Source: a virus. From it: a stretch of DNA of 64,000 bases. The translations under genes and the position numbers were made by a program. Numbering within the stretch: the stretch's first letter is position 1; the number at the start of each line of letters is the position of its first letter. Location: positions 1 through 64,000 of IMG/VR virus record IMGVR_UViG_3300034019_000950; one strand, 5' to 3'. A model generated the notes under the pieces. It had not been told where the DNA came from and ran no database searches. It saw only the letters and a list, made by a program, of their open reading frames with translations. This document shows, piece by piece, positions 343 to 34,364 of the stretch.

Positions 343-1023
343 ATGGCCACCACCACCACCACCCCCGTCGCCACCACCACCACCACCCCCGCCGCCGCCG
401 CCACGGGCAAGGGCAAGGGCAAGGGCAAGGGCACCACCACCCCGGCCGCCACCAAGGCCAAGGCCGCCCGCGCCGCCGCCGCCACCCCGGCCCCGGCCCC
501 GGTTGCCGCCACCCCGGCCCCGGCCCCTGTGGCGGCCCCGGCCCCGGTGGACAGCCTGTTCTCGGCCCTGGCCCAGCTGGACACCCCCCCGGCCGCCACC
601 ACCCCCGCCACCACCCCCGCCACCACCACCCCGGTCGAGCAGGGCGGGTGGGCCACGGCCGCCGACTGGTCCGCCGCCACGGCCGCCTGGGCGCTGCTGG
701 CGCAGGTGGAAAATTCCGTCGCCGCCGCCACGGCCGCCCCGGCCGCCCCGGCCGCCCCCAAGGCGGCCCGGTGGGCGCGCAACCCCGGCGCCGGCACGGT
801 GGGCCAGCTGGCCGCCCTTATTGCGGCGGCGGGGGGGGGTGACACTGTCGTTCTCGACGCAGCGCTGCTGGCGGCCCACAACATTGCTGCCACGTGGCTG
901 AAAAACACCCCCGCCTTTACCCAGGCCGACGGGGTCCGCAACGTGGCTGCCCTGCAGTGCGGCTACAAGGTTGCTGCGTTCAAGCGCGGTGTGGCTATCA
1001 CCCTGGTGCGCGTGGCTGCGTAG
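343..1023 (+). CDS. Ala/Pro/Thr-rich protein with (GK)n tract and small C-terminal domain
   Basis: A 226-residue protein of unknown function. Residues 1-110 are low complexity: Thr runs, a Gly-Lys repeat near residues 22-30 and Pro-Ala-Pro repeats. This looks like a flexible linker with a basic patch that could touch DNA. The last 50 or so residues are of normal composition, with alternating hydrophobic residues and a Trp, and look folded. The gene follows promoter site 1, and the ATG at 343 comes after a CAG-rich leader without a clear Shine-Dalgarno. The reading frame, promoter and normal C-terminus argue for a real gene; the N-terminal repeats have probably grown by slippage, as in the neighbouring arrays. 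Confidence 0.6.
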   Translation: MATTTTTPVATTTTTPAAAATGKGKGKGKGTTTPAATKAKAARAAAATPAPAPVAATPAPAPVAAPAPVDSLFSALAQLDTPPAATTPATTPATTTPVEQGGWATAADWSAATAAWALLAQVENSVAAATAAPAAPAAPKAARWARNPGAGTVGQLAALIAAAGGGDTVVLDAALLAAHNIAATWLKNTPAFTQADGVRNVAALQCGYKVAAFKRGVAITLVRVAA

Positions 1024-1580: not shown

Positions 1581-3490
1581 GGGGTGGTGCAAGCTGGGCA
1601 CGGTGCGGACGGTGCGGACGGTGCGGACGGGAGCACGAGAGGCACCGTCAGCACGTGCGGCACCGGGAGGGGCACGGTCAGCACGTGCGGCACGGTGGAC
1701 GCGGTGAGCACGGTGCGGACGTTGGAGACGGGCTGGTGCAGGGTGGACACGGTGAACACGGAGCACGAGACACGGGCTGGTGCAGGGTGGACACGGTGCA
1801 CGGTGGGCACGGGACACGAGACACGGTGGGCACGGTGCACGGCGGACACGGTGCACGGTGCACGGTGGACGGTGGACGCGGTGCACGATGGACACGGTGG
1901 ACACCGGGGACACGGTGGGCACGGCGGACACGGTGCAGACGGTGGGCAGGATGGACACGGTGCAGACGGTGGGCACGGTGAGCACCGGGGACACGGTGCA
2001 AGGTGCAGACGGCGGACGCGATGGACGCGGTGCGGACGGTGGACACGACGCGGACGGTGGGCAGGATGGACACGGTGGGCACCGGGGACAACGGAGGCAC
2101 CGGGGACACGGTGGGCACGGTGGGCACGGTGGGCACGGGACACGGTGCAAGGTGCAGACGGTGGGCACGGTGGGCACGGTGCAAGGTGCAGACGGTGGAC
2201 ACGATGCACGATGGACACGGTGGGCACGGTGGACACGAGACACGGTGGACGCGGTGCAAGGTGCGGACGGTGGGCACGGTGCGCACCGGGGACACGGTGC
2301 ACGATGGACGCGGTGCGGACGGTGGGCAGGATGGACGCGGTGCAAGGTGCGGACGGTGGGCACCGGGGACACGGTGGGCGCCAGGGGCACGGTCAACATG
2401 TGAGACGCGATGGACGCAGTGCGCGCGGGGTGGACGGTGGACACGGGGCACAGTGGACACGGGGTACGGTGGACGCGGTGCTGGATGGACGCGGTGTGGA
2501 GGGCAGACACGATGGACGCGGTGAGCACGAGACACGGTGGGCACGATGGGGACGGAGCACGGGGCACAGTGGACACGGGGTACGGGGCACAGTGCGGACG
2601 ATGGACACGGGGCACGGGGCACGGTGCGGGATGGACACGGTGCGGGATGGACGCGGTGTGGACACGGGGTACGGTGGACACGGGGTACGGTGGACACGGG
2701 GTACGGTGGACACGGGGTACGGTGCGGACGATGGACACGGGGCAGGATGGAGATGGTGAGGACGGTGAGGACCGTGTGGACCGGCTGATGCACGATGGAC
2801 ACGTGGCACGATGGACGCGGTGTGGACGGCAGACACGATGGACGCGGTGCGGGATGGACACGGTGGACGCGGTGCACGGTGGACGCGGTGTACGGTGTGG
2901 ACGGTGGACACGGGGCAGGATGGTGAGGACCGTGTGGACCGGCCGATACACGATGGACACGGGGCAGGATGGACAAGGGGCAGGATGGACAAGGGGCAGG
3001 ATGGACGCGGTGTAGACGGTGGACACGGGCTGATGCAGGGTGGGGACGTGCGGCACCGGAGGCACCGGAGACACGGTGCAAGCTGGACACGCTGCATGCA
3101 CGATGGACACGGTGCAAGCTGGACACGGTGCACGGGCCACGGTGGACACGGTCCAAGCTGGACACGGTGCATGCACGATGGACACGGTGCAAGGCGCACG
3201 ATCGACGCGGTGTGGATGGCGGACACGGGGCAGGATGGACACGGTGCACGGTGCGCACGGTCAGCACGTGCAGCACGATGGACACGGGGCAGGATGGACA
3301 CGGGACAGGATGGACGCGGTGTAGACGGTGTGGACGGTGGGCACGGTGCAAGCTGGGCACGTGCGGCACCGGAGACACGGTGCACGGTGGACACGGTGCA
3401 AGCTGGACACGGTGTATGATCAGCACGGTGCAAGGTGGACACGGTGCACGGTGGGCACGGTGGGCGCGTGCGGCACCGGGGACAACGGAG
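1581..3490. repeat. Large degenerate array of CACGG-centred words
   Basis: About 1.9 kb made almost wholly of interchangeable words such as GGACACGGTG, GGGCACGGTG, GTGCACGGTG, GCGGACGGTG and CAGGATGGACACGG. A typical 60-base stretch holds about five or six CACGG; 1801-1860 holds six. Local exact tandems occur: the 16-mer GTGGACACGGGGTACG is repeated four times at 2658-2721. The array is strand-biased, with G-rich words on the + strand. Words are shuffled rather than evenly spaced, so this is not a CRISPR array. Open frames of 500-600 codons exist on both strands because the words lack stop codons. I infer growth by slippage and recombination; the function is unknown. Confidence 0.85.
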
Positions 3491-3631
3491 GCGCCGGGGG
3501 GGCATCGACTGTAAGGGGACCCGACGCGCCTTACTTCCTCCGATGCGCTGTTCGCCATCTCCGATGCGCGGGGTGTGCTCATGCGGATCGTGCGGCATCC
3601 GGCGCCGGCATCAGCGAGGGGCTGCGCCGCG

Positions 3632-3742
3632 CACCCTACCCGGCACCGTGCACCCTACCCGGCACCGTGCACCCCTTGCACCGTGCACCCTACCCGGCAC
3701 CGTGCACCCCTTGCACCGTGCACCCCTTGCACCCTACCCGGC
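3632..3742. repeat. Two-unit tandem repeat in the opposite sense
   Basis: It is built from a 19-mer, CACCCTACCCGGCACCGTG (3632-3650, 3651-3669, 3686-3704), and a 16-mer, CACCCCTTGCACCGTG (3670-3685, 3705-3720), ending in truncated copies. The core CACCGTG is the reverse complement of the CACGGTG core of the upstream array. The two blocks therefore face each other, and their transcripts could pair. Confidence 0.85.
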
Positions 3743-3861: not shown

Positions 3862-3891
3862 TTGCGCCCCTAACATGTGCCCGGTTACGCT
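3862..3891 (+). promoter_or_regulatory. Early-type promoter with dyad (site 2)
   Basis: The -35 is TTGCGC (3862-3867), the spacer 18 bases and the -10 TACGCT (3886-3891). The dyad CTAAC-N9-GTTAC lies at 3870-3888. It drives the two small peptides and probably the 4137 gene. Confidence 0.7.
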
Positions 3892-3947
3892 GTAAGCAAC
3901 GGGGCACGGTGCTCCGCTAAGCAACCCATTCCGCTACAGGTACTGCA

Positions 3948-4136: not shown

Positions 4137-5189
4137 ATGCTTCACGCTAACACCGACATCTCCACCGTTACGTCCGGCCTCGCCTCCCTGGTGTGGTGGG
4201 ACTTCCACAACGTCCAGATCACTCCCTCCGACCTGCGCAGCCGGGTTGCGGCTGCTGGCTTCGACCCCTCCACCGTCAGCGACATTGAGCCGACCGACGC
4301 GGTGCGGCAGGCCGTCCGTTCCTTCCGCATCCACAACGCGGGGCGGGTCGTGATGGAGGCGGCGGTCGCGCACGAGGACCACACCGCGATGGTCATCAAC
4401 CTGCTCACCCTCACCCAGCAGGCCCGCGAGCGCGTGGCCAAGCTGCCCACCGACGAGCTGGTGTGGGACAAAATCGGCCGGGTTTGGCTCAGCGTTGGGT
4501 TGACCGCGGAAGCCGCCACGTTGCGCAATGAGGCGGCGGAACTGATGTCCTTCTACGACGGCAACAAGGTGCGCGAACACCTCGTCATGCCGGCCATCGA
4601 AGAATCCAAGGCATTCACTCTCAAGCGCGGCATGTACGTCGTTCCGCACGCGACTGCGGCGCCCATCGAGCGTGTCGCTGCGGCCCTCGCCGATCTCGAA
4701 ACGTTCAAGCTCCGCGTTGCCGTCGTCACCCCCAATCAGGGCTGGGAGGCGCCGCTGGCCGACGCCAGCCGGGCCGAGCTCCGCAACGACTTGCAGGAAC
4801 TGCAGGAACAGATCAACGGGTGGAAGAGCATGGCCAAGCGCGTCCGGTGCGACACGGTCGAAACGGTCATGGCCCGGTTCGCCAGCATCTCCGAGCGGGC
4901 CGCGCTTTACCGCGAAGCCCTGGCCATCAGCATCGAGGACATCGAGGCCGAGGTTCTGGACATGAAGAACATGGCCGAGGCCATCATCAACGACACTGCG
5001 CCCGCCCCGCGCAAGGAAGCGCCTGCGCCTGCGCCCGTCACCCCGCAGCAGGCGCGTCGCGCCGCCCTGCGCGCCATGAACGACGATCAGCTCAATACGC
5101 TGTGGGACGCGCTCGGCAACGGCGAGCAGCCCGCTGAGCGCGAGGCGCTGGTGGAGGCGATCGCTTCCGCAATGGAAGCCTCGCGGTAG
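4137..5189 (+). CDS. Conserved phage protein next to MoxR/VWA genes
   Basis: A 350-residue soluble protein. The N-terminus (residues 10-60) has an aromatic-rich segment with WWDFHNVQITPSDL, followed by mixed alpha/beta sequence. A charged helical stretch at about residues 215-280 is probably coiled coil, and an Ala/Pro linker leads to a short acidic C-terminal helix. The start region resembles phage proteins annotated DUF6744, but that is from memory and weak. It shares promoter site 2 with the small peptides and ends in a clear terminator. Position suggests it works with the MoxR and VWA proteins, perhaps as their substrate or adaptor; that is inference. Confidence 0.8.
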   Translation: MLHANTDISTVTSGLASLVWWDFHNVQITPSDLRSRVAAAGFDPSTVSDIEPTDAVRQAVRSFRIHNAGRVVMEAAVAHEDHTAMVINLLTLTQQARERVAKLPTDELVWDKIGRVWLSVGLTAEAATLRNEAAELMSFYDGNKVREHLVMPAIEESKAFTLKRGMYVVPHATAAPIERVAAALADLETFKLRVAVVTPNQGWEAPLADASRAELRNDLQELQEQINGWKSMAKRVRCDTVETVMARFASISERAALYREALAISIEDIEAEVLDMKNMAEAIINDTAPAPRKEAPAPAPVTPQQARRAALRAMNDDQLNTLWDALGNGEQPAEREALVEAIASAMEASR

Positions 5190-5313: not shown

Positions 5314-5343
5314 TTGCAACGGTAACCGCGCACATGTTACGCT
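5314..5343 (+). promoter_or_regulatory. Early-type promoter with dyad (site 3)
   Basis: The -35 is TTGCAA (5314-5319), the spacer 18 bases and the -10 TACGCT (5338-5343), with TGT as extended -10. The dyad GTAAC-N9-GTTAC lies at 5322-5340. It precedes the MoxR gene and decides its start: an upstream ATG at 5256 would lie before the promoter. Confidence 0.75.
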
Positions 5344-5378
5344 TACAGTGCAACGGGCAACGCCCAAGGAGAGCAAAG

Positions 5379-6506
5379 GTGACCACCACCACCATTCACA
5401 ACGCGCACGCCGACCTCACCACCCTTCGCGTCCAGATGAAAAACGCGTTCGTCGCCCGCGACGCCGAGATTGACGGGCTGCTGCTCGCGCTGCTGGCCCG
5501 CACGCACGTTCTGCTGCTGGGGCCTCCCGGAACCGCCAAGTCCCTGGTGACGCAGGTGTTCGCCAGCGCCCTGGGCGGCGACTACTTCCAGCGCCTGCTG
5601 ACCGCCTTCACCGCGCCCGAGGAGCTGTTCGGCCCGTATGACCTCAGCGCCCTCGACGCGGGCCGCTACGAGCGCGCTGTGCAGGGCTACCTGCCGACTG
5701 CCACCGTGGCGTTCTGCGACGAGGTGTTCAAGGCCAACAGTGCGATCCTCAACAGCCTGCTCACCGTGCTGAACGAGCGCCAGTTCGACAACGGCACCAC
5801 CCGGATGCAGCTGCCTCTGGAGCTGTGCGTCGGCGCCAGCAACGAGTACCCCGAGGACGCCAGCTTGGAGGCGCTCTACGACCGCTTCACCCTGCGCTAC
5901 TGGACGCAGTACGTGCCCACCCGCGCCGGGCGGCTCGCGCTGCTGACCGCCGCCGACCCCGCGCAGGTGGTGACGGCCAAGCTGGCGCCCGACGCGGTGC
6001 AGGTGCTGCAGCAGGCCGTTCGTGACGTGGTGGTGCCTCAGAGCGTTCTTGTCCTGCTGTGTGACGTCGCGGACAAGCTGGCTCAGGACAACGGCGTGGT
6101 GGTGAGCGACCGTCGCCTGCGCGGAATGGTGCGGCTGCTGCAGGCCAGCGCCGTTCTGGACGGGCGCGTCACCGTCACCGCGCGCGACTTGCTCGTGCTC
6201 GCGGACAGCGTGTGGCACCGTCACGATCAGCGCCCCGCCGTGCTCGCCACGGTGCTGTCGGTCGCCGCCCCAAAGCTCGCGGCCGCAATGAAACTGTCCG
6301 ACAGCGCGCGCGAGATCTACGACGCGGTCAAGGACGTCAGCAGCGACGGTGCTCGCGCCCTGCAGCGCATCAAGGCCGTTGAGGCGGAGCTGGTCAACAT
6401 GGGTCTTGACGACACCGACGTTCTCAACGCACACCTGTCCGTCGTCGAGCTGCGCAAGGGGCTGGCGCGTCGCTTCATGTCTGCCAGCGGGCTGGGCAAC
6501 GTGTAG
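5379..6506 (+). CDS. MoxR-family AAA+ ATPase
   Basis: A 375-residue AAA+ ATPase of the MoxR group, which acts as a chaperone-like remodelling enzyme together with VWA-domain proteins. Walker A is GPPGTAKS at residues 48-55; a Walker B CDE (ATVAFCDEVFKAN) lies near 107; sensor regions and a C-terminal lid follow. The GTG at 5379 is the best start: it follows AAGGAG at 5366-5371 and promoter site 3. A longer frame from 5256 would place its start upstream of the promoter. The next gene encodes a VWA protein, the usual partner (compare RavA-ViaA). What the pair remodels in the phage cycle is unknown. Confidence 0.9.
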   Translation: MTTTTIHNAHADLTTLRVQMKNAFVARDAEIDGLLLALLARTHVLLLGPPGTAKSLVTQVFASALGGDYFQRLLTAFTAPEELFGPYDLSALDAGRYERAVQGYLPTATVAFCDEVFKANSAILNSLLTVLNERQFDNGTTRMQLPLELCVGASNEYPEDASLEALYDRFTLRYWTQYVPTRAGRLALLTAADPAQVVTAKLAPDAVQVLQQAVRDVVVPQSVLVLLCDVADKLAQDNGVVVSDRRLRGMVRLLQASAVLDGRVTVTARDLLVLADSVWHRHDQRPAVLATVLSVAAPKLAAAMKLSDSAREIYDAVKDVSSDGARALQRIKAVEAELVNMGLDDTDVLNAHLSVVELRKGLARRFMSASGLGNV

Positions 6507-6527
6507 TCCTCCGCACCGCTCTGTCTG

Positions 6528-6559
6528 CACCCCCGCATCACCCTGCGGGGGTGTTTTCG
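6528..6559 (+). terminator. Intrinsic terminator after MoxR
   Basis: The arms CACCCCCGCA (6528-6537) and TGCGGGGGTG (6544-6553) form a perfect 10-bp stem, followed by TTTTCGT. Confidence 0.85.
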
Positions 6560-6583
6560 TCCAAAAAACCTTGCTGGCACAGC

Positions 6584-6613
6584 TTGCACTGCTAACCGGG
6601 CGCATGTTAGGTG
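6584..6613 (+). promoter_or_regulatory. Early-type promoter with dyad (site 4)
   Basis: The -35 is TTGCAC (6584-6589), the spacer 18 bases and the -10 TAGGTG (6608-6613) after TGT. The dyad CTAAC-N9-GTTAG (6592-6610) is perfect. Confidence 0.75.
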
Positions 6614-6638
6614 TACCTTGCACCGCAAGGGGGGCACA

Positions 6639-8102
6639 ATGGCCAACTTCACCACCACGAAACACGTCAATGCCACGCGCGATGTCTCGCGCTGGGCCGA
6701 CTACCTGTTCACCAGCCGCGCGTCCGCCAGCGCAAGTCTGTCATCGGCTCGTCGTGAGCTCAGCTTCGCATACAAGGCGCAGGGCGGCGGCTCCGACGTT
6801 GAGGATCGTCGCCTTGACGATCTCGCCACTGCAACGGCTCGCGAGGTGTTCGCCGGCCTTTACGACGAGAGCGAGGCGACCGTTCTCGACAAGCCCGCGC
6901 CCGACACTGAGCTGGTCACCCGCGTCCACGGGCAGCTGCAGCAGCTGCCCGAGTATGCTCAGCTGCAGGGGCAGGTTGCCGGCGATCCTGACCTCGCCGC
7001 TATCGCCACGGCTCGCCTTCTTTCCTCTGTTGCGGCTGCGCTGCCCAAAATGGCAAGTGAGGAACGGAAAAAGGCCCAGCAGGAAGCCAGCGGTGCACCT
7101 GTTCGCGGCCCGGCCGCCGACGCTGACGGCGTGCTTCGTCGCATGTTGCGCACGGCCTGCAATGACGCAGCGCAGGCTGCCGCCGAGGCGGCGGAAGGCA
7201 TGGAAGGGCTGGCCCCCGGCCTTGGCGAAGCTCCCGCTCAACATGCGCAACATGACGACGGCCGCATCAAGCTTGCGGAGCGTGTCAGCTCCGACGCGCG
7301 CCTGCGTCGGGTGATGAAGCTGGCGGGCCGCCTGCGCCGCCTTGCCAGCGACGGGCGCAAGGTGCGCGACGAGCTGGGCGCGGACACGCTGGTCGGCACG
7401 ACCATCGGCGGCGACCTTCCGCGCGCCCTGCCCACTGAGCTCGGCCTTTTGCGTCACGCTCGCCTGCGTCGCGTGCAGCTTGCCAAGCTGGCCGATCGCC
7501 GCCTGCAGCAGTATCACGTGGTCGGCAATATCCCCAAAGGTCGCGGTCCCATCATCGTTCTGCTTGACGAGTCCGGCAGCATGGAAGGGGATCGTAACCT
7601 GTGGGCTGCGGCCGTCGCGCTCGCCTGTATCGGCACCGCAGCCCGCGAGCGCCGCGCCTGCACGGTCATTGGATTCAATGGGTCGGTTCGCTACATCGTC
7701 CGCCTTGACACTCACGGCAAGGCGTGGCGTCACGACACCAGCAACGTCGCCAACGCGACTGCAATGGGCGCTTGTGCGGATCTCGCCCTGCACGTGGCCA
7801 GCAGCCGCCCCGATGGCGGCACGCAGTTCGCGCCACCCCTGCAGGCCGCACTGGATCTTGAGGACGGCGTGACCCGCGAGCGTGCCGACCTCGTGCTGGT
7901 CACCGACGGCCATGCCGAGGCGCCGGTTGACATTTTGCAGCGGCTGCAGCAAGCGAAACACGACGGGCTGCGTGTTTTCGGCCTGACTGTCGGTGGCGGG
8001 AGCCTTGGCGCTGCGGTGCGCAAGATCGCAGACCATATCGTTGACCTCGACGACGCAGCGGGGCGCAACGACGGCAAGGAAGTCGCCGGCGCCATTCCGT
8101 AG
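6639..8102 (+). CDS. VWA-domain protein, MoxR partner
   Basis: A 487-residue protein with a C-terminal von Willebrand factor A domain (about residues 300-487). The MIDAS motif DESGS sits at residues 310-314, with a later T and a VTDGH segment typical of the metal site. The N-terminal 290 residues are helical and charged, as in ViaA/CoxE-type partners of MoxR ATPases. The ATG at 6639 follows AAGGGGGG; an in-frame ATG at 6618 lies too close to the -10 of site 4. The protein probably couples to the 5379 ATPase to act on a shared target. Its own promoter and terminator isolate it from the neighbours. Confidence 0.88.
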   Translation: MANFTTTKHVNATRDVSRWADYLFTSRASASASLSSARRELSFAYKAQGGGSDVEDRRLDDLATATAREVFAGLYDESEATVLDKPAPDTELVTRVHGQLQQLPEYAQLQGQVAGDPDLAAIATARLLSSVAAALPKMASEERKKAQQEASGAPVRGPAADADGVLRRMLRTACNDAAQAAAEAAEGMEGLAPGLGEAPAQHAQHDDGRIKLAERVSSDARLRRVMKLAGRLRRLASDGRKVRDELGADTLVGTTIGGDLPRALPTELGLLRHARLRRVQLAKLADRRLQQYHVVGNIPKGRGPIIVLLDESGSMEGDRNLWAAAVALACIGTAARERRACTVIGFNGSVRYIVRLDTHGKAWRHDTSNVANATAMGACADLALHVASSRPDGGTQFAPPLQAALDLEDGVTRERADLVLVTDGHAEAPVDILQRLQQAKHDGLRVFGLTVGGGSLGAAVRKIADHIVDLDDAAGRNDGKEVAGAIP

Positions 8103-27021: not shown

Positions 27022-27762
27022 ATGCCGACCACTGAGCTGAACCTGACGACCGTGGCGCTTTCTGAACTGCGCCCCGACCCTGCCAATCCGCGCACGCACG
27101 ATGCGCGAAACATCGCGGCCATCGCAGCCAGCCTGCGAGAGCACGGTCAGGTAGAGCCGCTGCTGGTTCAGCGTTCCACGATGATGGTGATCGGCGGCAA
27201 CGGACGTGCAGAGGCCATGCGCTCCCTTGGCTGGAAGCAGGCCCGCGTGGCGTTGCTTGATGTCAGCGACACGGAGGCTCGCAAGCTTTCCATTGCACTG
27301 AACCGCACGGGCGAACTGGCCGGATGGGATGAAGCTGTGCTGGCGCGGCACCTTGCCGACCTGTCGGCGTTGGATGGTTTCGTTGTCGAGGACCTGGGCT
27401 TCAACACGGCTGAGCTGGACGCCTTGGTGGCCGCCTATGTTGGTGAAGTCGATCAGATGCACTTGGAAGAGCCGCCGCCGCGCGACACCAGCAAACTTCC
27501 AATCAACCAGCTGACTGCCGCACAGACCGATCAGCCTGCTTCCCCTGTCACGTCGTCCGTCATGCCCGCTACGCCCGAGCACACCGTTCCTGCGCCGATG
27601 CCGACCAGCAGCGTTCGCCTTGTCCAGCTGTTCTTGGATGATGAAACCATCGACGGCTTTCAGATGGCCGTGCGCAAGCTTGCCGACCAGTACGTGACCG
27701 ACAACATCACCGACACCGTGCGTCGTGCTGTGCTGACGGCAGCCGGCGATTGGAAGGACTGA
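27022..27762 (+). CDS. ParB-like nuclease-domain protein
   Basis: A 246-residue protein. Residues 8-100 form a ParB/Srx-type domain: LRPDPANPRTHD, then IAASLREHGQVEPLLV and MVIGGNGR (the ParB G-x-x-R box). A Pro/Thr linker and a helical C-terminal domain follow. In cellular ParB this fold binds and hydrolyses CTP; phage versions often accompany DNA-modification genes. It opens the modification operon: its stop overlaps the oxygenase ATG. No parA is nearby, so plasmid-style partitioning is unlikely. Confidence 0.82.
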   Translation: MPTTELNLTTVALSELRPDPANPRTHDARNIAAIAASLREHGQVEPLLVQRSTMMVIGGNGRAEAMRSLGWKQARVALLDVSDTEARKLSIALNRTGELAGWDEAVLARHLADLSALDGFVVEDLGFNTAELDALVAAYVGEVDQMHLEEPPPRDTSKLPINQLTAAQTDQPASPVTSSVMPATPEHTVPAPMPTSSVRLVQLFLDDETIDGFQMAVRKLADQYVTDNITDTVRRAVLTAAGDWKD

Positions 27763-28655
27763 TGCGGGCGGTCCTACGGACCAAGGTGCCTGAGCATGAA
27801 GTGGCTGCATGGAAGGGCAGGCACCCGCAGGCAAGCCAGTTCGACATGCTGGTTACTGGTGAGTGCGACCTGTATGGGCCGGATGGATCACCTTTGCTGT
27901 TTGTCCGACGCGGCAAGCTGAACAGCGAGGCAATAGAACAAGCAAGGCCGACACTGCACTGGATGCGTCGCTTCACAAGCGACAACCGCGCTGACTACGC
28001 TGGCGGCATTGCAGCCAAGGCCGTCAACGCAGATGGCACAGTGGCGAAGCAGAGCCGGACATACGATGAGCAAGGCAACGTGATGAGTGTGCCGAGCTGC
28101 ATTGCCGGCTTCTTTGAGCCGCAAGGCGGCCGGCATCCGTTCTGCAGGGCCACAGCATTCCTGCGCTCCTTCCCTGATCAATGGGCCAGTCTGCAGCCGA
28201 TGCTTAGGGACGTCGGCGCACTCTATCGACGCACTGTTCCGCTGCGATGGAAGCAGCAGATGGAAGTGGTGGACAAGTCAGACCCAGCGTGGGTCATTCC
28301 TGGCACACCCTTCACTACGATTACCGTCAACAACACAGTGCCGGCTGCCTACCACCGAGATGGTGGCGACCTCAAAGAAGGCTTTGGTGTCCTTGTCGTC
28401 TTGTCAAAGGGTCAGTTCGACGGATTCGATCTCGTCGTTCCAGAGTACCGTGTGGCTACCCACCTGCGCGACGGCGACGTTCTGTTCTTTGACCCGACTG
28501 TGTGGCATGGCAACACCCTGCCGACCAACATGGTTGGAGAGAAAGACGAGGACTGGTATCGCATCAGCCTTGTGGCTTACTACCGAGAGGGCATCGTCGG
28601 CTGCGGCAGCCCGCAGGCAGAGCTGCAAAAAGCAAAGGCCAGGGGTGCGCTGTGA
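27762..28655 (+). CDS. TET/JBP-type 2-oxoglutarate/Fe(II) dioxygenase
   Basis: A 297-residue protein with the signature of the TET/JBP family, which hydroxylates 5-methylcytosine or thymine in DNA. Iron ligands are H198 and D200 (YHRDGGD) and H249 (VWHGN); R267 in YRISLVAYYR should bind 2-oxoglutarate. The segment GFDLVVPEYR before DGDVLFFD is the usual metal-core strand, and FTSDNRADYAGG near residue 71 matches the family N-terminal motif. ATG 27762 follows GGAAGG and overlaps the ParB stop. Whether C or T is the substrate cannot be told; no cytosine methyltransferase was seen beside it. Confidence 0.82.
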   Translation: MRAVLRTKVPEHEVAAWKGRHPQASQFDMLVTGECDLYGPDGSPLLFVRRGKLNSEAIEQARPTLHWMRRFTSDNRADYAGGIAAKAVNADGTVAKQSRTYDEQGNVMSVPSCIAGFFEPQGGRHPFCRATAFLRSFPDQWASLQPMLRDVGALYRRTVPLRWKQQMEVVDKSDPAWVIPGTPFTTITVNNTVPAAYHRDGGDLKEGFGVLVVLSKGQFDGFDLVVPEYRVATHLRDGDVLFFDPTVWHGNTLPTNMVGEKDEDWYRISLVAYYREGIVGCGSPQAELQKAKARGAL

Positions 28656-29179
28656 AGACCGTGCTTTACGTCGTCGGAGCGCCCGGTGTAGGTAAAAGCA
28701 CTGCGCTCACCGGACTACTCGACAAGTGGGCCACCGCGCTTGTTCAGTCCCCAAAGTGGACATTGAGTGCGCCGATTGCTCTCGTTGGTCACTACGTAAA
28801 GGGCGGCCATGATGGCGGCGACACCGTTCCCTACGACGGTGCGGCAGAGTGCTTGACGTACATGCGCGATGTTCTGTTGCAAGATCACCGCCTGCATGGC
28901 TTTGTGCTGGATGGTGACCGCTTTACAACCTCTACCTGCCGTCAGTTCACTGACGGCCTACCTGGCATCCGTGTTGTGTGTGTTCATCTACAAGCCAGTG
29001 ACGCAACACTCACAGCCAGACGGACAGCCAGGGGCAGCACGCAGAACCCAACATGGATGCTCGGCCGCAACACGAAGGCGGCACGGTTTGCTGACAGCTT
29101 CCCCGACGCGGTACGGCTGCAGACTGATGAAATGAGGCCGGATGAAGTCACCCAGGCAATACGGGAACTGTTGCGGTGA
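28652..29179 (+). CDS. P-loop kinase, putative hydroxymethyl-base DNA kinase
   Basis: A 175-residue P-loop protein with Walker A GAPGVGKST at residues 9-17 and a DGDRF motif near residue 90. The fold is that of small nucleotide/nucleoside kinases. P-loop kinases that phosphorylate 5-hydroxymethyluracil in DNA are known from phage hypermodification pathways. The overlap with the oxygenase gene (GTGA) and the aGPT-like gene downstream support that role, which is inference. A host-nucleotide kinase is the alternative. Confidence 0.7.
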   Translation: MKTVLYVVGAPGVGKSTALTGLLDKWATALVQSPKWTLSAPIALVGHYVKGGHDGGDTVPYDGAAECLTYMRDVLLQDHRLHGFVLDGDRFTTSTCRQFTDGLPGIRVVCVHLQASDATLTARRTARGSTQNPTWMLGRNTKAARFADSFPDAVRLQTDEMRPDEVTQAIRELLR

Positions 29180-30219
29180 GCGCATCGCCAGTCGCACTTG
29201 CAGAGCCAGATCTTGCGAAAGTGAAAGCTTTGCTTCTGGACACGGCATCACCCGTACACGGTGATCCATCGTGTGTAGTGGTGTTGTTGTCTGCGAGCCG
29301 TAGTGGAAGCAGCACGGTGCATGACCTGCTGGCCCGGTGCGATGCCGTCGCGGCCTTGCCAGGAGAGATTGAGCCATACCTGCGATTGACTGGTAACGCG
29401 CAAGGCGTAGATGGAAGTAACGAGGTCACTTCCTTCACAAACATCGAAGAACTGCGCGCGCTTGTCCGCACGGATCTGCGCCTATGGTCGCAACCTCTAC
29501 CGCTGGTTCATGGTTCTGATTGGCATCAGCGTCGCCTGTTGTTTCAGTCTCCTATGGGCTTGGAGCTGGACGAAGGCTGGTATGACGGTTGCAGCAGACC
29601 GCCCGCTTCCAATCTCACGGTCTTGGAAGAGCCGCCACTGGTTCCAATAGCAGATGCGGTGAAGCCGGGTAGCCTAAACGGCGTCAAACTCATACTCAAA
29701 ACACCACAACTCGTCTATCGACGTGGGCTGGTGGAGGCGCTGTTTCCAAACAGTCCGGTTCACTACCTACACCTAAGACGCAGCGCGCCGGGGACTGTCA
29801 ACGGACTGCTTGATGGGTGGCTTGGTCCACACTTTTGGTCATATCGACTACCAGCGCCTGATGGGGCGGCGATGCCTGACTGGTGGTGCTTTGATGTGCC
29901 GCCAGGATGGCACGCGACACGAGGACTGCTTGATGCCTGTGTGCTGCAATGGGTTGCCGCCAACACGGCTGCGCTTCTGCACCCGCTGGTGGGGCATCTC
30001 CACTACGAGGACTTGTGGAGGCCGCAAGCAGAGCAACGAATAGCAGCCGCTTGTGGGATTGCCGTTGAGGCACGGCTACGTACAGTGATGGCGACAGAAC
30101 AGCCGGCTGAAAGACGCTGGGCAACCAAGCGGCCAGAACTTGCAGGCTTGATGGAGAGGAATGACGTTACACAGCTCATGGAGCAGCTGGGTTACGTGAA
30201 TGGAGGTGTCCAGTGGTAG
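29176..30219 (+). CDS. Sulfotransferase-like protein
   Basis: A 347-residue protein with the two PAPS-binding elements of sulfotransferases. The 5'-phosphosulfate loop is LLSASRSGSSTV (residues 37-48); the 3'-phosphate region is HYLHLRRSAPGTVNG (196-210); the strand ending LKTP (174-177) precedes it. These enzymes move sulfate from PAPS to a hydroxyl or amine. It overlaps both neighbours in the modification operon. The hydroxymethyl group made by the dioxygenase would be a natural acceptor, but this is inference. Some P-loop proteins of this fold bind other nucleotides. Confidence 0.7.
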   Translation: MSASPVALAEPDLAKVKALLLDTASPVHGDPSCVVVLLSASRSGSSTVHDLLARCDAVAALPGEIEPYLRLTGNAQGVDGSNEVTSFTNIEELRALVRTDLRLWSQPLPLVHGSDWHQRRLLFQSPMGLELDEGWYDGCSRPPASNLTVLEEPPLVPIADAVKPGSLNGVKLILKTPQLVYRRGLVEALFPNSPVHYLHLRRSAPGTVNGLLDGWLGPHFWSYRLPAPDGAAMPDWWCFDVPPGWHATRGLLDACVLQWVAANTAALLHPLVGHLHYEDLWRPQAEQRIAAACGIAVEARLRTVMATEQPAERRWATKRPELAGLMERNDVTQLMEQLGYVNGGVQW

Positions 30220-31046
30220 GGTTACAGGTCGTCAACCCGGATGGTCGGCTACGTTCAGTGCTGGTATCCAGTGCTGACAAGCTTGCGGCATCCTTGCCGG
30301 CCGCTGTTCCCGCAAGCTGGCTCGCCATGCCAGACGCAAAGGGTCTGATGGCAGAAGTGGAAGCATTCCACGACTTCTTGCGATCGCGCTTGCAGCTTGT
30401 TGTTGTCGACGTGGCCGACGCAACGCTGTTTGATGGCCTGTATGCGCGCGATTACGGCGCCGTCGTCAATCAGACGCTGTATCTGATGCGCAGTCCAGTG
30501 CCGCATCGTGCGCCAGAACGAGACAGGGTGGCTGACGAGCTGCAAAGGCTTGGAATCAAGGCAGTGTGCGCGCCAGATGATGTCTATGGTGAGGGAGCAG
30601 ACCTGCTTCCGCTTTCGCAGGGCCGATGGGCAATCGCAACCGGACGGCGCACAACACAAGGCATGGCCTTATGGATGCGCTCGCAGCTTCCATCAGATCA
30701 AGTCCTCTATCGAACCAAAAAGCGTGGACCTGATGTGCCTCAGCACCTGCTGGGTGGCAACCGCATCCTCAACGGGGTGCTTTACCACCGCGCAGATGTC
30801 GAGCCACTGCCAGGATGGACGGGCGAGTGCGTCAGTCTGAATGTCAATGATGAGGTTGGCAGCAAGCTCGGCATGAACTGGCTCGTGCTGGACAGGGCGG
30901 AAGTCGTGATGGCAGAGGACTGCCCAGGAGTGCGAGCCATGCTGGAGAAAAAAGGCATCAAAGTTCATGTTCTGCCGATGGCTAACATCAGGGCAATGGG
31001 GGGCGGCTTTGCCTGCGCCACGTTGCCGCTGTGGAGAGATCTATGA
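30213..31046 (+). CDS. Pentein-fold amidinotransferase / dimethylargininase-like enzyme
   Basis: A 277-residue member of the guanidine-modifying (pentein) superfamily. Motifs in order: ARDYG (78-82), GEGADLLPL (126-134; acidic residues for substrate), TGRRTTQG (143-150), the catalytic His in PQHLLGG (176-182; H178), and the catalytic Cys in GGGFACATLPL (263-273; C268). These enzymes attack the guanidinium carbon of arginine, then transfer the amidino group to an amine or hydrolyse it. GTG 30213 follows GGAGG and overlaps the sulfotransferase-like gene. In this operon it may act on an amine carried by a modified base, or supply such an amine. Confidence 0.78.
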   Translation: MVGLQVVNPDGRLRSVLVSSADKLAASLPAAVPASWLAMPDAKGLMAEVEAFHDFLRSRLQLVVVDVADATLFDGLYARDYGAVVNQTLYLMRSPVPHRAPERDRVADELQRLGIKAVCAPDDVYGEGADLLPLSQGRWAIATGRRTTQGMALWMRSQLPSDQVLYRTKKRGPDVPQHLLGGNRILNGVLYHRADVEPLPGWTGECVSLNVNDEVGSKLGMNWLVLDRAEVVMAEDCPGVRAMLEKKGIKVHVLPMANIRAMGGGFACATLPLWRDL

Positions 31047-31999
31047 CAGATGCGCTTGATCCAACGTCATGGCCCTTGTGGTCTGTGTTCATTCGCTTTG
31101 CACGTCGTCAGCTGGAAACGCTCGACTACGACCCGTTCCATCCGATGCTGGTGCACCTACAGCGCGGCACGAGTGTTGATGAAGGCTTGTGGTCCAGCTT
31201 CCTTTACATGGCCTTCTACAACCTGGGATCAGCCTACTGTGCGTGGACAACAACACGTCCGATGCAGGCACTTCCAGCAATAGCGGACCGATGGTCTATC
31301 GGAACGCAAAGACGCAACCTGCGAGCAAGCAGTGTTTGCAAGCATGTTGAGTCATTGGCATCGCAAGCCAGACCGCACGGGAGCCTCTACAGCTTCTTCA
31401 CACATGACTTCACTGGTAACGAAAAGGCAGATTGGCTAAGCCTTCTGAACAGGCTGGAAGGCGTGTGGGGTAACGGAAGGTGGGGCGCTTACACGACAGC
31501 TGAGCTGCTACAGAAAGTGAACCAGCTACCAGTGCAGCCAGCAACCCTTGGATTGGAAGGAGCCACAGGCCCACGAAAGGGACTGGTGGTGCTGACGGGC
31601 CTATCAGCGGAAACCAGCACGGAGGTCATGCAGGTGTATGGTGACGCGCTACTGGCCAAGCTACGCAGCCTGTTTCCAAACCCCCGCATCCCCTGGGCAA
31701 GACACGGCATTGACTTCGCAATGACCGAAAGCATCCTCTGCGACTTCTACGGCTTGACCAAGGGTCGCTACTACATCGGGCGGGACATAGACCGTGAGGC
31801 AGGACGGATACTGTCTCAAAGTGGTCGAACTGACGTGGATATGGGTCCCTTGTGGGCCGCACGCGCCACAGTGTTCCCACCTCACCTGCTTGCTGAGCGA
31901 CGGAGGACCGTGCTGGACATTGATTATGAAAGAGCGCGGGTCTACAAAGAGACTGGCCTGCTGGCAGACTACCGTGACGACTTCCCTTTGCTGCCATGA
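31043..31999 (+). CDS. Probable alpha-glutamyl/putrescinyl-thymine pyrophosphorylase-like protein
   Basis: A 318-residue helical protein. The region near residue 225 (ARHGIDFAMTESILCDFYG, then KGRYYIGRDIDR) and the N-terminal yDPFHP and aromatic helices resemble the aGPT-PPlase families (distant DNA glycosylase relatives). They are predicted to join amino acids or amines to phosphorylated hydroxymethyl-thymine in phage DNA. The match is from memory of the family pattern, so moderate. ATG 31043 overlaps the pentein stop and follows GGAG. It closes the operon; a new promoter follows. Confidence 0.6.
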   Translation: MTDALDPTSWPLWSVFIRFARRQLETLDYDPFHPMLVHLQRGTSVDEGLWSSFLYMAFYNLGSAYCAWTTTRPMQALPAIADRWSIGTQRRNLRASSVCKHVESLASQARPHGSLYSFFTHDFTGNEKADWLSLLNRLEGVWGNGRWGAYTTAELLQKVNQLPVQPATLGLEGATGPRKGLVVLTGLSAETSTEVMQVYGDALLAKLRSLFPNPRIPWARHGIDFAMTESILCDFYGLTKGRYYIGRDIDREAGRILSQSGRTDVDMGPLWAARATVFPPHLLAERRRTVLDIDYERARVYKETGLLADYRDDFPLLP

Positions 32000-32054: not shown

Positions 32055-32393
32055 ATGATTGACTACAAACAGGCAGTAAGTGGGGAACAGCGTGCGGCTT
32101 GTGCGAGGTTGCAGGCCGACCTGCAGTTAGAGCTGAGCGCACTGCCTAAGCAGGCAAAGTGGCACGAGCGCATCGCCTACAACAACGCAATCGACTGGCT
32201 CGATAGCGTCATTCAACATGGCGCATACGGTTGCCAGCTGTGCTTTACGAAGCATCCGGTCGTGTTGCGTCTTGCTGCGCATCATGGAGTGCCGGTAGCG
32301 CCCGCCCCGCGTCATGCCACGACTGATGATGTGCGTAGGTTGCGGGAAGGCATCGCGCTGACAGAAAGGGTGCGTCCTAACCTGCGCGCATAG
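32055..32393 (+). CDS. Hypothetical protein (112 aa)
   Basis: Small basic helical protein, unknown, with a possible metal-binding CQLCFTKH in the middle. ATG 32055 follows AAGGGGG and promoter site 11. The C-terminal end runs into a decamer repeat. Confidence 0.65.
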   Translation: MIDYKQAVSGEQRAACARLQADLQLELSALPKQAKWHERIAYNNAIDWLDSVIQHGAYGCQLCFTKHPVVLRLAAHHGVPVAPAPRHATTDDVRRLREGIALTERVRPNLRA

Positions 32394-32430
32394 GGGCGCG
32401 CAGGGGCGCGTAGGGGCGCGTAGGGGCCTG
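32391..32430. repeat. Tandem decamer TAGGGGCGCG
   Basis: Four in-phase 10-base units: 32391, 32401 (CAGGGGCGCG), 32411 and 32421 (TAGGGGCCTG). The exact helical-turn period would present the same face of DNA repeatedly. It begins at the stop codon of the 32055 gene. Confidence 0.8.
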
Positions 32431-32490
32431 TAACGGGGCGCATAGGGTGCCCATACGCGCCAGCACTGGCAACGCATGGCCGGTGCGTGC

Positions 32491-33939: not shown

Positions 33940-34364
33940 CCTTGCCTCAACGTGTGGCTGCCGCGCCGTGGTGGCGCTGGCCCATCGGCTGTGCGGTGCG
34001 CACGCCCGGCTGCGCGGATCTGCTGCGGGTGGTGGGGCACCAGCACGTGCAGCGGGCGCCGCACCTGCGCCTGCGGGTGCACGCGCGCGGGCTGGTGGAG
34101 CTGACGATGCGGGCCACGGCCTGCGCGCCCGCGCTGGACGACGACGCCACCGCCGCGCTGCTGCTGGCGGCCCTGTGGGCGCACGACCCCGAGTGGCACA
34201 CCCACCACGACGCGGAGGGCTACGTGGCGCACGTAGACCCGCGCAGGGGCGAGTGGACGGCGCAGGTGCGGGGCGAGGCGCTGGCGCTCGCTGCGCTTGC
34301 CTGCCTTGGCGAGAACGGGATGGCGGGCGTCTGGCCTGCAATCAAAACAAAGGATGAACCATGA
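33927..34364 (+). CDS. Hypothetical protein (145 aa)
   Basis: A GC-rich gene filling the space between the 3D-domain gene and dUTPase, overlapping both. The start ([15 protein letters not shown]) is typical of short phage proteins, and the rest is helical. Reverse-strand frames are also open, but the tight overlaps favour this one. Function unknown. Confidence 0.6.

Follow-up and report, generated by a model that had tools for sequence, protein, structure and literature searches.

A one-way array of two interleaved short words, which looks like a fast-changing DNA repeat, between the early and late arms of an IMG/VR phage genome

The window analysed here is a 64,000-nucleotide stretch that makes up bases 1-64000 of a 79,355-bp IMG/VR phage contig (IMGVR_UViG_3300034019_000950, labelled G000). 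Early and replication genes occupy the plus strand from about 4.1 to 36 kb, among them those for a primase/helicase, a helicase, a Sak4-like annealing protein, a small serine recombinase and a protein with a ParB_N domain. The minus strand from 36 to 79 kb encodes the structural proteins (capsid, protease, portal, terminase). The terminase shows about 31% likeness to the terminases of SPO1-like phages; a search for a close cultured relative found none, and the sole match in a terminase-based host search, at 30%, lies in a Clostridia MAG. No end repeat was found in the contig. Four further contigs cover the late arm only, at 99.98-100% identity. Compared with the relatives G003 and G004, G000 has its early arm turned round with respect to the late arm, and its lysis cassette (8.8-11.3 kb) is shifted between early genes, so that the spacer containing the array described below lies at a rearranged boundary.

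Several other features of the early arm deserve mention. A MoxR AAA ATPase and a VWA protein are encoded as a pair at 5340-8102 (plus strand) and are kept through distant relatives, and a short 10-bp tandem repeat, GCGCGTAGGG, occurs six times at 32386-32447. The ParB_N gene (27022-27762, plus strand) opens a group of genes, 27022-31999 on the same strand, that also encodes a TET/JBP-type oxygenase (PF12851), a P-loop nucleotide kinase, an ADI-like C-terminus and an amino acid:DNA transferase (ADDT; PF18724)/aGPT-Pplase. This is a putative base-hypermodification cluster, and its domain content suggests that an oxidised DNA base is phosphorylated and then conjugated. No PF00145 cytosine methylase was found, and a dUTPase gene follows the cluster at 34361. 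A search of the relatives with PF18724 gave no match anywhere and is hence uninformative.

The main array spans 1581-3490, and its surroundings are themselves structured. To its left lies an orphan gene (343-1023, plus strand), whose 226-aa product is of low complexity with a Lys/Ala/Pro-rich N-terminus; a search for relatives of this product found none. The N-terminus of the protein, which is encoded next to the array, resembles a histone tail (GKGKGKGK, KAKAARAAAATPAPAP). Shorter runs of words on the same strand, detected by TRF and by their spacings, occupy about 1141-1400: GGTGCACGGGG in 2.9 copies, GCGGGGTGGGCACGGTGC in 2.2 and CACGTGCGG in 6.9. Between this sub-array and the main array, at 1449-1523, is a perfect 20-bp inverted repeat, CAGGCACAACGGGCAGCCTG, with arms at 1449-1468 and 1504-1523. 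It forms a strong predicted hairpin that folds far better than shuffled versions (z -3.5 and -3.8), and it is the sole inverted repeat in G000 with arms of at least 15 bp and a loop of at most 120; it is absent from the relatives and the other IMG/VR contigs searched. To the right, a non-repetitive core of about 135 bp (3491-3626) separates the main array from an oppositely oriented one, and in blastn the core matches only G000 and the second contig that carries the array (G001, see below), i.e. it is confined to one species. The mini-array beyond it (3627-3733, minus strand; TRF and spacings) is built of related words running in the opposite direction, in 16/19-bp units with GTGCA spacings of 9, 7 and 9, and the skew flips at about 3500-3640. 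The initial annotation had placed the repeats at 1581-3490; that main block is real, and related shorter arrays also lie outside it on both sides.

Both flanks carry copies of an element recognised throughout the phage family. Its members on the two sides, each of the form CTAACCGC..GTTAC on the plus strand, lie at 236-262, upstream of the 343-1023 gene, and at 3870-3896, to the right of the array and ahead of two short ORFs (3948 and 4024). Their presence on both flanks identifies these as phage DNA and eliminates contamination. The general form is CTAACCG(N)xCGGTTAG/C, often palindromic, often with TTGCGC just before it and GTCAGCAG just after; sites in the window start at 236, 3870, 6592 and 11359 (all plus), and many more occur upstream of genes in the relatives G002-G005. 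The element is a candidate family promoter or operator.

The array had been described as words recurring in no fixed order or spacing. Recurrence itself is beyond doubt, with 75% of the 10-mers in 1581-3490 recurring, compared to 7-11% in Markov shuffles. The spacing, however, proves to be quantised. Of the CACGG spacings below 48 bp, 69 of 70 are sums of 7 and 9 (the mean fraction under an order-3 Markov null is 0.50, with a maximum of 0.69), and the same is true for 102 of 106 ACGG spacings (null 0.46, maximum 0.59). Autocorrelation peaks fall at 9, 16, 7, 18, 25, 27 and 34. Viterbi tiling resolves the plus-strand array into about 222 units of two words, the 7-bp CGGTGCA (87 copies) and the 9-bp CGGTGGACA (135 copies), the latter being the 7-mer with two inserted bases. 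This two-word segmentation tiles 95% of the array, whereas order-3 Markov controls with identical training reach 81-85%, and its score of 1054 is almost double their 522-605. The strand bias reported earlier is pronounced, with forward and reverse counts of 112 and 3 for ACGG, 93 and 1 for GGAC, and 80 and 2 for CACGG. The fourfold tandem of a 16-mer at 2658-2721 (plus strand), a 9+7 unit, is exact. The density of CACGG had been overstated at five or six per 60 bases; the mean is 2.5 and the maximum 7. A resemblance of the shared 7-mer to the V(D)J heptamer was set aside as chance.

Stop codons are as scarce as had been claimed, with 3, 6 and 4 in the three plus frames and 1, 2 and 2 in the minus frames, where shuffles have about 15.5 and 7.6, respectively. 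This scarcity does not require coding, since the words are poor in T and in TA. The steps between ACGG motifs fall 54, 50 and 7 into the three classes modulo 3, so the units are not multiples of three and do not keep a reading frame.

How variable is the array? A second contig, G001 (IMGVR_UViG_3300042320_001627), matches G000 from 2266 to 26669, with zero differences across about 23 kb outside the array. All differences fall inside it: at 2658-2721 G001 carries three copies of the 16-bp unit instead of four, and there is a base change or changes at or near the G001 contig end, where the substitution may stem from the assembly graph. The array is thus known from two assemblies, and its mutability from one 16-bp indel plus a substitution near a contig end. 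Within G000, array stretches become less alike with distance (similarity 0.745 falling to 0.707). Long exact repeats (the longest is 51 bp) are clustered, 29% lying within 150 bp of each other where 15% would be expected. Such local decay of similarity and clustering of exact repeats are what slippage or unequal exchange would produce.

Among closer relatives the array is missing. The most informative is G004, with 70-78% DNA identity and a terminase about 90% identical; we read its exact 127-bp terminal overlap as marking a complete circular genome of about 74.7 kb, and the array was looked for there and is absent. None of G002-G005 has it, and in those of these genomes that have a homologue of the gene at 4137, this homologue comes right after the lysis cassette. 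Two candidates were rejected: the hit in G002 is a 22-bp repeat in three copies, and the L071 repeats belong to the coding tail of its homologue of the 4137 gene. When IMG/VR was scanned for exact patterns of the array words, 33 and 22 loci came back, of which G001 alone was array-like; a similar scan of GTDB genomes returned 0, and blastn of the array against phages gave no match. Against plasmids, blastn returned two short, simple 9-bp repeats in actinobacteria that were judged convergent.

Arrays of similar form but unrelated sequence occur in more distant relatives. An unbiased autocorrelation scan, using lags not divisible by 3 and covering about 0.7 Mb and more of family contigs and loci, revealed long arrays in only three other lineages. 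In L119 (IMGVR_UViG_3300033153_007882; terminase 53% identical), one-way GGACGTT/GGAGGTT words at 7-bp steps occupy L119:115-372, at the contig end and about 4 kb upstream of terminase. G017 (IMGVR_UViG_3300006923_000018; terminase 51%) has 27 tandem one-way TTAATC[GAC] words at 75,520-75,712 (L155:15520-15712), with all 26 steps exactly 7, preceding a short Lys-rich ORF. In G006 (terminase 52%), one-way, G/T-rich degenerate repeats with periods of 28, 33 and 38 bp lie at both contig ends (L033:5150-5772 and L029:1-320); diverged copies of one unit and G-runs are found at both ends, and the array is about 2 kb downstream of terminase. Each of the three runs in one direction and is apparently non-coding. 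Their words are mutually unrelated, and no array is further than about 1 kb from a contig end, at an early/late or terminase-side boundary. Some such proximity is to be expected, since repeats themselves interrupt assembly. G-runs at the tips of contigs (G006 1-70, and a 22-bp G-rich extension in L107/G009) were excluded as evidence; poly-G ends can arise from two-colour sequencing. A control scan of 490 kb of unrelated viral loci gave one short match and zero long arrays, so that enrichment is suggestive only, the control set being too small for proof.

Phage T7 offers the closest formal parallel. In the T7 genome (NC_001604), CCTAAAG occurs 11 times forward and 0 times reverse at the left end, where most copies are spaced by 13 bp and the run adjoins the left terminal repeat; near the right end, by terminase gene 19, it occurs 5 times forward and 0 times reverse. 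The periodicity scan detected the left end (z 8-9) and did not detect the right. We take these copies to be the described SRL/SRR elements. A role in concatemer processing has been proposed for SRL/SRR. Like them, the G000 array is non-coding and degenerate and consists of one-direction short words at an early/late boundary, the T7 words being 7 bp long and at a genome end. It lacks, however, the identical 7-bp word at 13-bp steps that defines the T7 type: the T7 steps of 13 bp extend over about 170 bp and adjoin a terminal repeat of 160 bp, while the G000 array has 7/9 steps and unrelated words and is ten times longer than SRL.

Other known repeats share different subsets of properties. With the minisatellites (VNTRs) of eukaryotes and bacteria, the array shares local duplication, head-to-tail variant units (the class has units of roughly 6-100 bp), higher-order periods, similarity that decays with distance, and length polymorphism, here a single event; it differs in its two interleaved unit lengths, its near-strict 7/9 spacing and its location in a phage spacer. 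The intergenic tandem repeats of Borgs, which are recently formed and fast-evolving, likewise belong to extrachromosomal elements and show a strand-composition bias, but they are near-perfect, A-rich and scattered over the genome, whereas the array is a single large, degenerate, G-rich block (PMC9879509). Only 14-38% of the unit lengths of intergenic Borg repeats are divisible by three (PMC9879509).

Considering these features together, we lean, with modest confidence, towards a lineage-specific, non-coding minisatellite that grew by slippage in the early/late (terminal-type) spacer and is probably dispensable. Its appearance is that of a rapidly changing DNA repeat in the neighbourhood of the genome-end region, not of a gene or a centromere. 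The two words, CGGTGCA and CGGTGGACA, occupy the spacer that parts the early/replication arm from the late/packaging arm. In the mechanism we propose, they would be interconvertible, and replication slippage, or recombination between adjacent copies, would lengthen and shorten the array in steps of whole words. Such whole-word changes would preserve the 7/9 spacing and the one-way orientation while letting word order drift. We infer slippage or recombination as the cause of array change. Because the complete G004 genome lacks the array, it is presumably not essential to the phage group, with the caveat that an array-free relative shows only that related phages can manage without one.

Other explanations fare less well. 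The initial annotation offered a centromere-like ParB site array and a decoy for a host protein among its readings, and pointed to the ParB-like protein encoded at 27022 as a possible binder of the array. The words are indeed numerous, short, intergenic and one-directional, as in ParB/parS or iteron systems, and a ParB_N protein is encoded. That protein, however, matches Pfam ParB_N at residues 8-92 only, its matches to solved structures stop at about residue 117, and no HTH domain of ParB could be detected; structure prediction gave no usable model (pLDDT 39). No ParA partner (PF13614) was matched in G000, a record that is maybe slightly incomplete, while all 14 of 14 controls were positive. 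Moreover, homologues 70-81% identical are kept in G002, G004 (74%) and G005, none of which has the array, and the gene adjoins the TET/JBP, kinase and ADDT genes for base modification. A centromere or decoy bound by this protein is therefore scarcely credible. Nor is an assembly artefact any easier to accept. Repeats assembled from short reads are prone to error, and contigs terminate within the array or close to it, but its longest exact repeat is shorter than common read and k-mer lengths, and G001 joins about 1.2 kb of array to 23 kb of phage DNA. An encoded repeat protein or a structured non-coding RNA seems very unlikely. Long open frames exist (e.g. 634 aa on the minus strand), and folding of array segments is uneven (z from -0.06 to -3.6), with some out-folding their shuffles and others near -0.6 to -1.5. 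The unit steps and the 16-bp polymorphism, however, break any reading frame, which argues against a coding repeat, and an Rfam search returned no family at gathering score; its one match, to an miRNA on the hairpin, was below threshold. A replication origin, in which the G-rich, purine-rich strand would prime replication by forming an R-loop or an opened stretch downstream of the gene at 343, is improbable. It could draw on the G+A content of 55-69% and the skew of +0.16 to +0.44 over the array, on the hairpin together with the skew flip, and on a skew minimum near the contig junction. The skew mostly follows gene strand, however, and is largely monotone in G004, which is coded on a single strand, so it was rejected as evidence for an origin; no known initiator or iteron family was matched, the complete G004 again lacks the array, and the earlier suggestion of an origin is left without independent support.

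The main rival, by virtue of the array's place and form, is a terminal or packaging function, in which one-way words would flank the site of concatemer cutting or end-repeat copying, as proposed for T7 SRL/SRR, with fast turnover of the words and conservation of the form. We regard this as possible, though unlikely. The array lies between the early and late modules, arrays of unrelated words lie near contig ends in L119, G017 and G006, T7 has its one-way words at both ends, and the hairpin and opposite-strand mini-array would give the zone a defined anatomy. Against this, G004 does without the array despite its closely similar terminase, placement and orientation with respect to terminase vary across the four lineages, and repeat-induced assembly breaks bias arrays toward contig ends. 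Position thus mildly favours the packaging zone suggested at the outset, and the array-free G004 speaks against it. The recurrence in four lineages and the clear avoidance of reverse words could nonetheless reflect function, and if the array has a job, the likeliest is one like that of the short repeats at the T7 ends, in a terminal or concatemer-junction zone. A broader version of this idea is a long shot: related phages would independently carry one-way short-word arrays at genome ends (7-bp based in three of four lineages), with the sequence freely replaceable and the form (strand, step and place) selected, as a general and previously unnamed terminal element of which T7 SRL/SRR would be one case.

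A large non-coding minisatellite is not what one expects in a compact phage genome. The arrays explain assembly breaks in this phage group and offer a rapidly changing marker for strains. If similar steps but unrelated words characterise arrays that recur at early/late boundaries, they would bear on the retention of T7-like end repeats; if only slippage is at work, the G000 array would be a clear case of phage junk DNA of hypervariable size.
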